Below, one piece after another: positions 41,307 through 47,211 of a stretch of 64,000 nucleotides of DNA; the first letter of the stretch is position 1; every line of letters begins with the position of its first letter. The stretch comes from Carettochelys insculpta. Taxonomy: Eukaryota; Chordata; Testudines; Carettochelyidae. The stretch lies in contig NC_134158.1 in assembly GCF_033958435.1 (NCBI RefSeq), positions 9,364,337-9,428,336 of the forward strand. The letters run 5' to 3'. The translations under genes were made by a program, and so were the position numbers. The notes below the pieces were generated by a model. It ran no database searches, was not told the DNA's origin, and saw nothing but the letters and a program-made list of their open reading frames with translations.

Positions 41307-41507
41307 ATATAAGAACATAAGAACATAAGAACATAAGAATGGCCATACTGGGTCAGACCAAAGGTCCATCAAGCCCAGCATCCCATCTGCCGACGGTGGC
41401 CAATGCCAGGCGCCCCAGAGAAGGAGAACAGAAGACAAGTGATTTATCTCCTGCCATCCATCTCCTGCCCTTGTTATGAAGGCTAGGGCACCATACTTTA
41501 TCCCTGG

Positions 41508-44500
41508 CTAATAGCCATTTATGGACCTGACCTGCAAAAATTTATCAAGCTCTTTTTTAAACCCTAATAGAGTCCTGGCCTTCACAGCCGCCTCGGGCAA
41601 GGAGTTCCACAGGTTGACTGTGCGCTGTGTGAAGAAAAATTTCCTTTTATTAGTTTTGAACCCACTACCCATCAATTTCATTTGGTGTCCCCTAGTTCTT
41701 GTATTATGGGAAAAGGTAAATAATTTTTCTATATTCACTTTCTCCACACCATTCATGATTTTATATACCTCTATCATATCGCCCCTCAATCGCCTCTTTT
41801 CCAAACTGAAAAGTCCCAGTCTCTCTAGCCTCTCCCCATATGGGACCCTTTCCAAGCCCCTAATCATCTTAGTCGCCCTTTTCTGAACCTTTTCTAATGC
41901 CAATATATCTTTTTTGAGGTGAGGAGACCACATCTGCACGCAGTACTCGAGATGTGGGCGTACCATAGTTTTATATAGGGGAAGTATGATATCTTTTGTC
42001 TTATTATCGATCCCTTTTTTAATAATTCCTAACATCCTATTTGCCTTACTAACTGCCGCTGCACACTGCATGGATGTCTTCAGAGAACTATCCACTATAA
42101 CTCCAAGATCCCTTTCCTGATCTGTCGTAGCTAAATTTGACCCCATCATGTAGTACGTGTAATTTGGGTTATTTTTTCCAACATGCATTACCTTACACTT
42201 ACCCACATTAAATTTCATTTGCCATTTTGCTGCCCAATCACTCAGTTTGCTGAGATCTTTTTGTAGTTCTTCACAATCCCTTTTGGTTTTGACTGTCCTG
42301 AACAACTTGGTGTCATCTGCAAACTTTGCCACCTCACTGCTTACCTCATTTTCCAGATCATTGATGAACAAGTTGAACAGGATCGGTCCCAGGACTGAGC
42401 CCTGGGGAACACCACTAGTTACCCCCCTCCATTGTGAAAATTTACCATTTATTCCCACCCTTTGTTTTCTGTCTTTTAACCAATTCCCGATCCATGAAAG
42501 GACCTTTCCTCCTATCCCATGACCACCTAATTTACATAAAAGCCTTTGGTGTGGGACCGTGTCAAAGGCTTTCTGGAAATCTAGGTATATTATGTCCACT
42601 GGGTGCCCCTTGTCCGCATGTTTATTAACCCCTTCAAAGAATTCTAATAGATTAGACAGACACGACTTCCCTCTGCAGAAACCATGCTGACTTTTGCCCA
42701 ACAATTCGTGCTCTTCTATGTGCCTTGCAATTTTACTCTTTACTAGTGTTTCTACTAATTTGCCTGGTACTGATGTTAAACTTATCGGTCTATAATTGCC
42801 AGGATCTCCTCTAGAGCCTTTTTTAAATATTGGTGTTATATTGGCCGTCTTCCAGTCATTTGGTACCAAAGTGGATTTAAAGGATAGGTTACAAACCACT
42901 GTTAATAACTCTGCAATTTCACATTTGAGTTCTTTCAGAACCCTTGGGTGAATGCCATCTGGTCCTGGAGACTTGTTACTATTCAGCTTATCAATTAATT
43001 CCAAAACCTCCTCTAATGTCACTTCAATCTGAGTGAGTTCCTCAGATTTGTCGCCTAAAAAGGCTGGCTCAGATTTAGGAACCTCTGTAACATCTTCAGC
43101 CGTGAAGACTGAAGCAAAGAAATCATTTAATCGCTCCGCAATGGCACTGTCTTCCTTGATCGCTCCTTTTATATCTTTATCATCCAAGGGCCCCACTGCT
43201 TTTTTAGCAGGCTTCCTGCTTCTAATGTATTTAAAAAACATTTTACTATTGTTTTTTGAATTTTTGGCTAGCTGTTCCTCAAACTCTTTTTTGGCTTTTC
43301 TTACTACATTATGACAGTTAATTTGGGAGTGTTTATGTTCCTTTCTATTTTCCTCACTAGGATTTGACTTCCACTTTTTAAAAGCTGCCCTTTTCTCTCT
43401 CACTGCCTTTTTAACATGGCTGTTTAGCCATGGTGGTTCTTTGTTAGGTCTCTTACTGTGTTTTTTTATTTGGGGTATACATTTAAGTTGGGCCTCTAGT
43501 ATGGTGTCTTTAAACAGTTTCCATGCAGCTTCCAGGGATTTTAGTTTAATTACTCTACCTTTTAGTTTCTGTTTAACTAGCTTCCTCATTTTAGTGTAAT
43601 TCCCCTTTTTGAAATTAAATGCCAGAGTGTTTGACCGCTGCGGTGTTCTTCCCAACACAGGAATATTAAAAGTTATTATATTGTGGTCACTATTTCCAAG
43701 CGGTCCAGTAACAGTTACCTCTTGGACCAGATCCTGCGTTCCAGTCAAGACTAGATCGAGAATCGACTCTCCCCTTGTGGGTTCCTGTACTAGCTGCTCC
43801 AAGAAGCAGTCATTTAAGGCATCAAGAAATTTAATCTCTGAATCCCGTCCTGAGGTGACATGCACCCAATCAATATGGGGATAATTGAAATCTCCTATTA
43901 TTACTGTGTTTTTTATTTTGATAGCCTCTCTAATCTCCCTCATCATTTCAGCATCACTATCACTGTCCTGGTTAGGTGGTCGGTAATATATTCCTAATGC
44001 CATATTCATATTAGAGGAATGAATTGTTATCCATAATGATTCTATGGAACATTTTGATTCCTTTAGGATTTTTACTTCATTTGATTCTATATTATCCTTC
44101 ACATATAGTACCACTCCGCCACCCGCACGACCTGTTCTGTCTTTCCGATATAATTTATATCCCGGTATGATAGTGTCCCACTGATTGTCCTCATTCCACC
44201 AGGTTTCTGAGATGCCTATTATGTCAACTTCCTCCTTTGATATGAGGTACTCCAGTTCACCCATCTTATTAGACAGACTCCTAGCATTAGTGTAAAAGCA
44301 TGTTAGAAAACTACCACTATTTATATGTCCGCCTTTCACAGACGTGGTGGATTTTTTTATGCACGATTGTTTCACATCTGATCTTGCCCATATATTATTT
44401 CCCACGTTCCCTATCTGACTAACTTCTAGGGAATCCCTGTCTATGGAGCCTCGTGTAAGAGAAGTCTCCGTCCGATCCAGGTGCTCCCCCGCACCAATCG

Positions 44501-44519
44501 GCTTTCCCCCACCTCTTAG
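41508..44519 (-). CDS. CR1 ORF2: endonuclease and reverse transcriptase
   Basis: The frame from 44405 (a GTG, not ATG) encodes 965 residues and is open further upstream to the ORF1 end. An APE-type endonuclease is at the N-terminus: [40 protein letters not shown] and the SDHNI histidine motif. The reverse transcriptase follows: [63 protein letters not shown] and the active site KFADDTKLF. The C-terminal region has [16 protein letters not shown]. It nicks target DNA and copies the element RNA (target-primed reverse transcription). The first in-frame ATG is inside the endonuclease domain, after its first catalytic motif, so normal AUG initiation would give a damaged enzyme; see the frameshift finding. 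Confidence 0.93.
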
Positions 44520-45436
44520 TTTAAAAACTGCTCTATGTCCTTTTTAATGTTTAATGCCAGCAGTCTGGATCCACCTTGATTTAGGTGGAGCCCATCCTTC
44601 CTGTATAGGCTCCCCCTACCCCAAAAGTGTCCCCAGTTCCTAATAAATCTAAACCCCTCTTCCCTACACCATCGTCTCATCCACGCATTGAGACTCTGAA
44701 GTTCTGCCTGTCTATCTGGCCCTGCGCGTGGAACTGGAAGCATTTCAGAGAATGCCACCAAAGATGTTCTGGATTTCAGTCTCCTTCCTAGTAACCTAAA
44801 TTTGGCCTCCAGAACATCTCTTCTACCCTTCCCTATGTCATTGGTACCAACATGTACCACGACGACCGGCTCCTCCCCAGCACTGCCCATAAGTCTGTCT
44901 AGATGCCTCGAGAGATCCGCAACCTTCGCACCAGGCAGGCAAGTCACCATACGGTTCTCCCGGTCATCACAAACCCAACTATCTATATTTCTAATGATGG
45001 AATCCCCCACTACTAAAACCTGCTTCTTCCTAACAGCTGGCGCTCCCTCCCCCGGAGAAGTATCCTCGGCACGAGAGGATACATCACCCTCTGGAAGGAG
45101 GGTCCCAACTACGGGATGGTTTCCCTCTGCTCCCATTGACTGCTCTCCTTCCCTGAGCCTTTCATCCTCCGTAACAGCCTCAGGACTGTCAGATTGGAGG
45201 TGGGACAGCCCTACTATGTCCCGGAAAGTCTCATCCACAAACACCTCTGCCTTCCTTAGCTCCTCCAGTTCAGCCACCCTGGCCTCCAAAGCACGCACTC
45301 GGTCTCTGAGGGCCAGGAGCTCCTTGCATCGAGCGCACACATACGCCACCCGCCCACAGGGTAGGTAGTCATACATACTGCACTCGACACAATAAACAGG
45401 ATAGCCCCCACTCTGCTGCTGGGCTTCTGCCTCCAT
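44516..45436 (-). CDS. CR1 ORF1: zinc-binding, coiled-coil and SGNH-esterase protein
   Basis: 306 residues from an ATG at 45436 to TAA at 44518-44516. The N-terminus has paired cysteines (YCVEC ... [11 protein letters not shown]) resembling the zinc-finger-like motif described for turtle CR1 ORF1. A leucine-rich coiled coil follows ([20 protein letters not shown], about residues 40-60), then an acidic linker. The C-terminal SGNH-hydrolase (esterase) domain has VGDSIIRN with the catalytic Ser, [11 protein letters not shown], and KDGLHLN carrying the Asp and His. ORF1 proteins bind element RNA and assemble the particle; the role of the esterase is unclear. The last codons are TTT TTA AAC TAA, which form a slippery site. 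Confidence 0.93.
44519..44525 (-). promoter_or_regulatory. Candidate -1 ribosomal frameshift site (T TTA AAC) in CR1
   Basis: On the element strand the ORF1 codons TTA and AAC, preceded by T, form U UUA AAC in the correct phase, with the UAA stop next. A -1 slip enters a frame with no stop that runs 38 codons into the 965-codon ORF2 frame. Downstream, CCGAT...ATCGG enclosing GGTGC...GCACC can fold into a stable hairpin, about 17 nt after the heptamer, and TAAGAG can pair with CTCTTA around it. Confidence 0.6.
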
Positions 45437-45979
45437 TTCCTACTCTAGTTATATACGAGGGTTAATTAAATGTTTCAGATAGAGGTTGTTATAAAGGATT
45501 TAGTTTAAGGGCAACAGAAGTAAGTCACTGGCTCCCTCCAAGCTCCCCCTCTAAACTCCCCTCTCCAAACTCCCTCCTGTTAGCACGCACCCTGGTTGCC
45601 AGCACCCGGTCGCAAAGCTCCCTGGTCGCTTACTAGCAGGTTTTAAGTGCTCGGCCTCCCTGATAGCTCCTCCCTCTGCCTACAGCTCAGCCAATCAGCA
45701 CACGGTGTTTCAATTCAAACCTAATCAGCTTCCAACTGCCTGCCTGCCTGCCTGCCTGAGCACACGGCCTTTCAAACAAACAAACACACACTCAGCTCAG
45801 CACTCCAAACAAACAAACTCCAAACTCCAAACAAACACACAAGCCCAAAACCTCCAAATATAAGCAGCCACTTACCCCAAGGTGCTTTAGTTTGCTCCTT
45901 CCTTCTCCTCCTCCAGGAGAGCCTCTCCAAACTCCCTCCTGTTAGCACGCACCCTGTTTGCCAGCACCCGGTCGCAAAG
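45437..45979 (-). promoter_or_regulatory. CR1 5'UTR/promoter region with duplicated module
   Basis: A 57-bp segment at 45561-45617 is repeated at 45923-45979 with a single mismatch, 362 bp apart. The interior contains (TGCC)n near 45737-45757 and 'aaac' repeats. A tandem promoter-monomer arrangement, as in mouse L1, is one explanation. Confidence 0.7.
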
Positions 45980-46026: not shown

Positions 46027-47007
46027 TCATATTTTCTTACCCCAGTATAGGCTCCTCAGCACTCTCCTTAGCGCCCTGTGCACATCCTTGTTCCTCAGTG
46101 TGTAAATCAGGGAGTTAAGCATGGGGGCGATGATGCCGTAGAAGAGGGAAACCATCTTGCCCCGGTCCAGAGAATGGTTGGATGGCGGCTGAAGATATAT
46201 GAAAATGGCCGTCCCATAGAAGAGAGCCACCACAGCCAGGTGGGAGGCGCAGGTGTTGAAGGCCTTGAGCCTGCCCTTGGCCGACTGCATCCTCAGCACA
46301 GCGGTGACGATGTAGCTGTAGGAGACGAGGATGAGGCCCAGGGGTACCAGCAGGAAGATCACGCTGACAGCAAACGCCTCAGCCTCGTTCGCCGAGGTGT
46401 CGACGCAGGCCAGCCTGAGCAGGGCCGGCACCTCGCAGAAGAAGTGGTCAATGCGGTTCCGCCCGCATCGGGGCAGCCGCACCGTCAGGATGGTCTGCAC
46501 CATGGAGTTGCCGAAACCGCTCAACCAGACGGCAGCCGCCATCTGCAGGCAGAGGCGTTGGTTCATGACTATGGTGTAGCGCAGCGGCCGGCAGATGGCC
46601 ACGTAGCGGTCGTAGGCCATGACGACCAGCAAGAGGCACTCGGTGCAGCCCAGCGAGAGGAAAACGTACAGCTGGACCACGCAGCCGGCCCAGGTGATGG
46701 ACTTGTGGGTACTCTGGAAGTTCACCAGCATCTGAGGAATGGTGCTGGTGGTGTAGCAAAGGTCCAGGAAGGAGAGGTTGCTGAGGAAGAAATACATAGG
46801 GGTGTGCAGACTGGGTTCCCGCCACAAGACCGCAATGATGGCCAGGTTCCCCACCAGGTTCACAACATACAGGATCAGGAAGACCACGAAAAGCAGCTTC
46901 TCCAAATGCGGTTGGTCAGAGACCCCCAGTAAGATAAACTCCCACTCGGAGGTTCCATTCCCTCTTTCCTCCTGTGGGAAGAAGGGACAAAAATAAGGAG
47001 GAAACAA
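46027..47007 (-). CDS. Olfactory receptor (class II, family 2-like), start codon not in this exon
   Basis: A seven-transmembrane odorant receptor coupled to G-olf in olfactory neurons. Landmarks are all present: an N-glycosylation site in RGNGTSEWEFILLG, NLVGNLAI in TM1, HTPMYFFLSNLSFLDL in TM2, MAYDRYVAICRPLRY at the end of TM3, SYSYIVTAVL in TM5, KAFNTCASHLAVV in TM6, and PMLNSLIYTLRNKDV in TM7. The C-terminus is short and the stop TGA is at 46029-46027. No frameshift or internal stop. The open frame begins at a TTG (47007) with no in-frame ATG before TM1. A good acceptor, CCTTCTTCCCACAG|GAGGAAAGAGG (exon edge 46971), suggests that the Met is supplied by an upstream exon; alternatively the start is lost. 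Similarity to mammalian OR2 genes near MGAT1 is inference. Confidence 0.9.
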   Translation of the reverse strand: MFPPYFCPFFPQEERGNGTSEWEFILLGVSDQPHLEKLLFVVFLILYVVNLVGNLAIIAVLWREPSLHTPMYFFLSNLSFLDLCYTTSTIPQMLVNFQSTHKSITWAGCVVQLYVFLSLGCTECLLLVVMAYDRYVAICRPLRYTIVMNQRLCLQMAAAVWLSGFGNSMVQTILTVRLPRCGRNRIDHFFCEVPALLRLACVDTSANEAEAFAVSVIFLLVPLGLILVSYSYIVTAVLRMQSAKGRLKAFNTCASHLAVVALFYGTAIFIYLQPPSNHSLDRGKMVSLFYGIIAPMLNSLIYTLRNKDVHRALRRVLRSLYWGKKI

Positions 47008-47211
47008 GCTTCAATAGCCACACGCAGGAGGGACACATTCAAGGGCCATCCCATGTGCTCTGAATGGACCTTGCCGACTTGTGACTTGGGTGGCAGAAAA
47101 TCTGGCCTAGTTGGGTGGCAGGTGGGATCTTTCTGACACAGAAGAGTGGCGCTTAATGTTGAAAAAGAGTCCATATATCTTGGAATTAAAGTGTTATAGA
47201 TCAGCATTTCT

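Follow-up and report, generated by a model that had tools for sequence, protein, structure and literature searches.

It is understood for few long interspersed nuclear elements (LINEs) how the second open reading frame (ORF) is translated, and the answer reported for LINE-1 and SART1 is reinitiation, in which ribosomes stop at the end of ORF1 and restart at a downstream AUG (passages of PMC2881922 and PMC5972666). Here we consider the same question for a CR1 LINE found in a 64,000-nucleotide stretch of the genome of the turtle Carettochelys insculpta (NC_134158.1, positions 9,364,337–9,428,336 of the forward strand; the whole stretch is referred to as the window and numbered from its first letter), where the element occupies approximately 41309–45979 on the minus strand. 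CR1 is a major LINE of turtles, crocodilians and birds. From the arrangement of the sequence we conclude that this young element probably expresses ORF2 by programmed –1 ribosomal frameshifting, a reading to which we would give a probability of about 0.86.

LINE-1, SART1 and CR1 all have a bicistronic RNA from which ORF2 is made downstream of ORF1, but in the first two the ORF2 AUG follows or overlaps the ORF1 stop codon (same sources, in part), whereas the window CR1 has no AUG before its endonuclease and an ORF2 which overlaps ORF1 in the –1 frame. This resembles the gag-pol junction of retroviruses and the comparable sites of coronaviruses and arteriviruses, where a heptamer of the form X_XXY_YYZ in the phase of the upstream ORF lies near its stop codon and the polymerase ORF is in –1 (sections of PMC5009743 and PMC11818727). 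The heptamers U_UUA_AAC and G_GGA_AAC occur in these viral sites as well as in CR1-group LINEs, and an excerpt of PMC5009743 counts both among the sites at which mammalian ribosomes shift most readily. Unlike these viruses, CR1 is a non-LTR (long terminal repeat) retrotransposon, its stop codon directly adjoins the heptamer, and no common downstream structure was found by RNA folding, which covered no pseudoknots; unlike retroviral gag-pol, it has no known protease to cut a fusion. Frameshifting has also been reported for HeT-A, which like TART is a telomeric LINE and like CR1 a non-LTR element, but HeT-A lacks a reverse transcriptase (RT) and needs the shift for its gag, while for TART pol a start at a codon of its own is presumed (PMC5009743, in part).

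The esterase ORF1 and the ORF2 with apurinic endonuclease (APE)-type endonuclease and RT are shared with the LINEs of the CR1 clade described in passages of PMC4120745, PMC3905857 and PMC4316615, and the word frameshift is absent from the main text of these three papers, whose passages are also silent on how ORF2 is made. We found no description of frameshifting or readthrough between CR1 ORF1 and ORF2 in the excerpts that the open-access literature provided; the original CR1 papers of 1997–2003 lay outside this survey, and it is quite possible that the overlap of the two ORFs had been noticed there.

The ORF1–ORF2 junction of the window element

The window element belongs to the CR1 clade, having an esterase-type ORF1, an endonuclease–RT ORF2 related to that of vertebrate CR1, and a 3' end composed of 8-bp repeats rather than poly(A). 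ORF1 (44516–45436, minus strand, as are all features of the element given below) consists of 306 codons plus TAA and encodes a Cys-rich N-terminus followed by an SGNH/GDSL esterase (Pfam Lipase_GDSL_2, 5e-13), with 84% identity to a Pelodiscus protein. The ORF2 frame runs from stop to stop over 1011 codons (41508–44543) in –1 relative to ORF1 and encodes the APE-type endonuclease (Exo_endo_phos_2, 3e-14) and the RT (RVT_1, 4e-35). A profile built from this ORF2 and eleven relatives finds LINE-1 ORF2p among proteins of solved structure (6e-55), and the endonuclease alone gave no match in the PDB at E 0.01.

An initial annotation had placed a slippery heptamer in phase immediately before the ORF1 stop codon, and the letters agree: the minus strand at 44530–44516 reads CAG TTT TTA AAC TAA, with U_UUA_AAC at 44519–44525 in the phase of ORF1 and directly 5' of the TAA at 44516–44518. 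The –1 frame, which had been said to run on for 38 codons into ORF2, is indeed free of stop codons from 44543 to 41508, with GTG 44405 as the in-frame codon at this distance of 38 codons, and it overlaps ORF1 by 28 bases. This is the arrangement of a programmed –1 site, with a canonical heptamer in the phase of the upstream ORF and an overlapping downstream ORF in –1, and the chance of such a heptamer ending zero or one codon before the ORF1 stop is 0.0026 as calculated from the codons of ORF1 itself. TTTAAAC occurs only once in the coding part of the element; other canonical heptamers are found in phase once in ORF1 (GGGAAAC) and eight times in ORF2, and heptamers as such are therefore not rare.

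The linker between the heptamer and the endonuclease (44289–44518; 72 codons) has neither a stop nor an AUG in the ORF2 frame, and this is the only frame open over its length, the other two having 8 and 4 stops; 27 of 3000 dinucleotide shuffles of the same length stayed open. The first in-frame ATG of ORF2 (44262–44264) lies within the endonuclease in NKMGELEYL, as had been annotated, and comes after the Asn of NARS (44286–44288). In an alignment with the human LINE-1 endonuclease this Asn, which we take to be a catalytic residue, coincides with the first conserved Asn region. An ORF2 AUG ahead of a complete endonuclease, as found in elements of the LINE-1 and SART1 type, is absent from the window family and from the three readable copies of a further turtle subfamily (subfamily I, see below), and reinitiation at an AUG therefore cannot yield a complete endonuclease in either. 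ORF2 might instead be initiated at a non-AUG codon such as GTG 44405, which is in frame, upstream of the endonuclease and in good context (AAC GTG G), and the window linker contains six near-cognate codons (CTG, GTG or ACG), with six or seven (CTG, GTG or TTG) in each of the three subfamily I linkers. We rejected this GTG as the ancestral start, however, as two older related copies have AAG (L202) and AAT beside an inserted base (L203) in its place, and as a non-AUG start also leaves the conserved heptamer unexplained, we regard it as very unlikely.

If ORF2 is expressed by frameshifting, the Leu and Asn tRNAs at U_UUA_AAC would re-pair with UUU and AAA. Most ribosomes would then stop at the codon that follows, releasing ORF1p (306 aa), while a minority would continue at CUA to produce one fusion of approximately 1309 aa in the order esterase–linker–endonuclease–RT, with a low ratio of ORF2p to ORF1p fixed as in retroviral gag-pol frameshifting. 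The shift may be aided by the adjacent stop codon and, in the window family, by a stem-loop that begins 6 nt downstream; we consider a contribution of the stop codon to stimulation because a stop 3 nt downstream matters strongly in one plant virus (PMC5009743, in part). The ORF1–ORF2 fusion by frameshifting proposed in the initial annotation is supported at sequence level by the phase of the heptamer, the open –1 frame, the missing AUG, and the recurrence of this arrangement elsewhere.

Copies and subfamilies in the turtle genome

The junction (401 bp) occurs at 100% identity in at least 40 copies in the same genome (2.18 Gb, 134 contigs), these being the best 40 of 1870 candidates picked by similarity to the junction itself, so that the arrangement is the state of the family, and a mutation private to the window copy was rejected. 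Thirty copies that we fetched (L171–L200) are 98.7–99.9% identical over 1.9–3.2 kb; all had been selected for the identical junction, and the –1 frame reaches the end of the retrieved stretch in 29 of them, with an ORF1 frame of 306–308 codons in 20. In a separate search with the Eretmochelys ORF2 protein P0121 (best 63 of 114,103 candidates), an ORF2 frame of identical length (1011 codons) was found in 48 of the 63 copies. One of the 63 has a T-run longer by one base and an open frame of 1311 codons, which is what transcriptional or reverse-transcriptional slippage on the T-run would be expected to leave if fused RNAs or copies arose in this way. But only this one of the 63 listed copies shows the fused frame, and the sampled subfamilies have three Ts and three As only, probably too short for efficient polymerase slippage, and this makes slippage a most improbable source of ORF2p.

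The older copies L202 and L203 read CAG TGT TTA AAC TAA, with the codon before the heptamer changed (TGT for TTT) and the heptamer the same. A loss of the heptamer or of the open –1 frame among related copies, which would have spoken against the initial annotation, is not seen in the young family, where both are conserved, and the heptamer is also kept in L202 and L203. The linker of L202 is open. A conserved AUG at the position where P0121 starts was considered and rejected, as there is no in-frame ATG in the window family or in L202, and in L203 an inserted base breaks the frame at this point.

To sample further CR1 subfamilies in this genome, we searched with ORF1 from a different turtle family (P0061; best 107 of 10,426 candidates) and took the ORF1 3' ends of rows 3–62. 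The first two rows were set aside, as their matches do not reach the end of ORF1, and the list is biased towards copies with an alignable end. The predicted recurrence of the heptamer was borne out, with TTTAAAC in phase in 54 of the 60 ends, TTTAAAT in two and other letters in four (one of these displaced by a base), and the codon after the heptamer is TAG in 56 of the 60. As at least four different downstream sequences are present, the 60 ends represent several subfamilies. Among eleven longer pieces, nine were readable across the linker (three each of subfamilies I, II and III; L265 and L269 were unreadable). All nine linkers begin with FKLG, followed by GEGD in five of the six from subfamilies I and II (GGGD in L272), and the three subfamily I copies have no ATG and no stop between the heptamer and the endonuclease. 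The three subfamily III linkers are likewise free of stops but contain ATGs.

The remaining parts of the window element are a 5' UTR (untranslated region; 45437–45979), in which a 58-bp piece is repeated 362 bp apart, and a 3' UTR (41309–41507) that ends in repeats of TTCTTATG, three complete and a fourth in part. In 6 of the 30 fetched copies the repeated 5' UTR piece has an additional match farther upstream, and these repeats together with the high identity between copies suggest that this turtle CR1 family was active very recently. CR1 3' ends with octamer repeats have been described (PMC2612034, in part). An open olfactory receptor reading frame (46027–47010, minus strand; Pfam 7tm_4, 1.5e-54) lies next to the CR1 insertion, with about 50 bp between its stop codon and the 5' end of the element.

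Relatives beyond the turtle genome and the RNA downstream of the heptamer

We examined the best 120 of 361 ORF1 relatives and retained 95 with usable natural ends, having dropped 25 (17 without a DGLHL-type motif, four with over-long tails and four with short tails; among these, P0003 and P0036 end in LN and P0006 in LLK). The tail ends in Leu-Asn in 87 of the 95, which come from turtles, lizards, fishes, sharks and frogs, and the preceding residue is of 13 kinds and in 85 of the 87 is one for which a U-ending codon exists. Only two of 61 distinct tails have a residue without such a codon there (Glu), compared to 24.4% at nine upstream positions (P 8e-6), a background which is not position-specific; the hydrophobic positions –6, –7 and –9 are likewise poor in such residues (3, 6 and 7 of 87). 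The frequency of Leu-Asn-stop could also mean that ORF1p carries a functional peptide motif at its C-terminus, with the heptamer as a by-product of that motif. However, wherever the DNA was seen TTA AAC is preceded by T, despite there being six Leu codons, and two LINE loci from prokaryote assemblies have ORF1s ending otherwise (FLV in L122 and GNF in L125) yet carry shift-prone heptamers at the same place and in the same frame, and we hold a peptide motif to be highly improbable. Two of the eight exceptions to Leu-Asn end in Gln-Gly-Asn, which is compatible with G_GGA_AAC and is known from protein alone. Amongst birds, FKLD and KGEGD appear in the ORF2 frame of six stork gene models, in agreement with a –1 reading of TTTAAACTAGA, though these are protein models only. 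CR1-type proteins were also filed under a plant (P0053, Tanacetum cinerariifolium) and a bacterium (P0145, Carnobacterium maltaromaticum), probably through contamination.

The LINEs in prokaryote assemblies are probably contaminating animal DNA as well. Thirteen loci were listed, of which seven were readable at the junction (L122–L128) and six were not (L129–L134). In the eight endonuclease-bearing loci of assemblies G001–G005, ORF2 is in –1 in three, in the same frame as ORF1 behind one UGA in five, and in +1 in none. The –1 loci L122 and L125 have T TTT TTA and G GGA AAC, respectively, within one codon of the ORF1 stop (chance 0.9% and 0.4%), so that heptamer and frame recur in independent copies and families with other canonical heptamers in these two; the third, L143, has the non-canonical G GAA AAC. 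No AUG precedes the endonuclease in L125 or L143, where the L143 motif was placed by eye.

Four of the same-frame loci, all from Poribacteria assemblies (G001 and G002), have UGA CUA (L127:1523–1531, L128:1438–1446 and L147:1088–1096) or UGA CUC (L148:1228–1236) between the two ORFs; their ORF2s are 38–51% identical and have no ATG before the endonuclease. UGA CUA is a strong readthrough context, and from their sequences we regard these loci as candidates for programmed stop-codon readthrough. Poribacteria are, as we understand it, sponge symbionts. The one other same-frame family, L123 and L124 (99.6% identical), has UGA CAA (L123:353–355 and L124:1230–1232) and ATGs right at the start of the endonuclease. 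In a phylogenetic tree the same-frame L123 is placed beside the –1 L122 with moderate support, which suggests that the two modes may have interconverted. The ORF1/ORF2 region of L126 is in one single frame, and on the same contig L159 and L160 have PHD-like fingers (recognised by eye) and the endonuclease in one frame. We also note that the open frames of L126 (26–1100), L159 and L131 (3476–3620) have 2A-like NPGP motifs close to their N-terminus, accompanied in L126 and L159 by PHD-like fingers (by eye) in an in-frame fusion with the endonuclease; LINEs of trypanosomes and sea urchin are known to contain 2A motifs (PMC5972666, in part).

Taking these loci together with the turtle copies and the ORF1 tails, we lean slightly towards recoding as the regular route to ORF2p in the CR1 group, with –1 frameshifting (U_UUA_AAC, U_UUU_UUA or G_GGA_AAC) in CR1 proper, from sharks to birds, and in some invertebrate relatives, UGA readthrough in the sponge-associated families (CUA following in three and CUC in a fourth), and the ORFs fused in others. 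Eight of twelve matches in six further assemblies were read (L162 and L164 had no usable junction), and L165–L168, which are L1-like by eye, contrast with the CR1 junctions in having an ATG a few codons before the endonuclease. Scans of viral contigs with ORF1, profiles A1, A2 and A3, and the L127 ORF2 gave one weak match (L121) and otherwise nothing useful; scans of phages, and of genome contigs with ORF1, were also unproductive; a plasmid scan gave one match of 23% identity only, and contigs found in a scan for the 14-base junction pattern were taken as chance matches without inspection.

Downstream of the heptamer, the 63-nt piece that starts at 44512 has a computed fold of –25.2 kcal/mol (z –3.2, with 0 of 200 shuffles as good), forming a candidate stimulatory stem-loop (44455–44512) which begins 6 nt 3' of the heptamer and scores z –3.2 to –3.5 in the window family. 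The hairpins pointed out in the initial annotation do exist in this family, but the TAAGAG/CTCTTA helix starts at the stop codon without a spacer and could hardly persist while a ribosome occupies the heptamer. Nor is the hairpin kept across subfamilies, and a universal stimulatory hairpin was rejected as no downstream structure is common to all families. L122 has a strong local hairpin (z 0 to –2.7 depending on the piece folded), subfamily III reaches z –1.5 and –1.8 at best, and among the readthrough candidates only L148 folds well behind the UGA (z –4.2), while L127, L128, L147 and the L123 family do not. Compared to L202 and L203, the first 63 nt past the heptamer have four fixed differences and the next 138 have 33 (P 0.003), a probability that is too good since the cut at 63 nt was chosen after seeing the differences.

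Weighing frameshifting against reinitiation

Reinitiation is the described mechanism for LINE-1 and SART1, and the observations which favour it here are the in-frame linker AUGs of subfamilies II and III (three copies each), of bird CR1 and of L122, along with the ATGs of the L1-like L165–L168. The absence of such an AUG, on which the initial annotation relied, is therefore a property of the window family and subfamily I and does not extend to these others. However, the positions of the linker AUGs vary between families, no AUG is available before the endonuclease motif in the window family, in the three copies of subfamily I, or in L125, L143, L127, L128, L147 and L148, and reinitiation leaves unexplained the heptamer, its phase, and the lack of any +1 ORF2 amongst the eight loci. 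We therefore consider reinitiation unlikely as the general explanation, though it could act in the families with linker AUGs, perhaps alongside frameshifting.

Further observations weigh against programmed frameshifting, in addition to these linker AUGs, the non-canonical heptamer of L143 and the uneven background of the ORF1 tails. The heptamer had been expected to be more conserved than its flanks, and within the 60 sampled ends it is not clearly above its ORF1 neighbours. Where the window family and the older copies differ, the fixed differences are spread almost evenly over the three ORF2 codon positions (11, 11 and 15), giving no sign of protein-level selection on the linker. Two of the subfamily II linkers have one stop each and that of L203 has insertions and two stops, all three being decayed copies. 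Finally, a 127-nt fold of the window junction is unremarkable (z –1.1), and two copies each of subfamilies I and II, together with L125 and L143, fold no better than shuffled sequences.

Since at least 40 junctions of the young turtle family are identical, the frameshift reading can be tested in cells. If it is true, the CR1 RT is made as a fusion to ORF1p in a low and fixed proportion, and non-LTR elements, too, use the logic of retroviral gag-pol. If recoding is general in the CR1 group, ORF2p would arise there as an ORF1p fusion, the opposite of the LINE-1 model.

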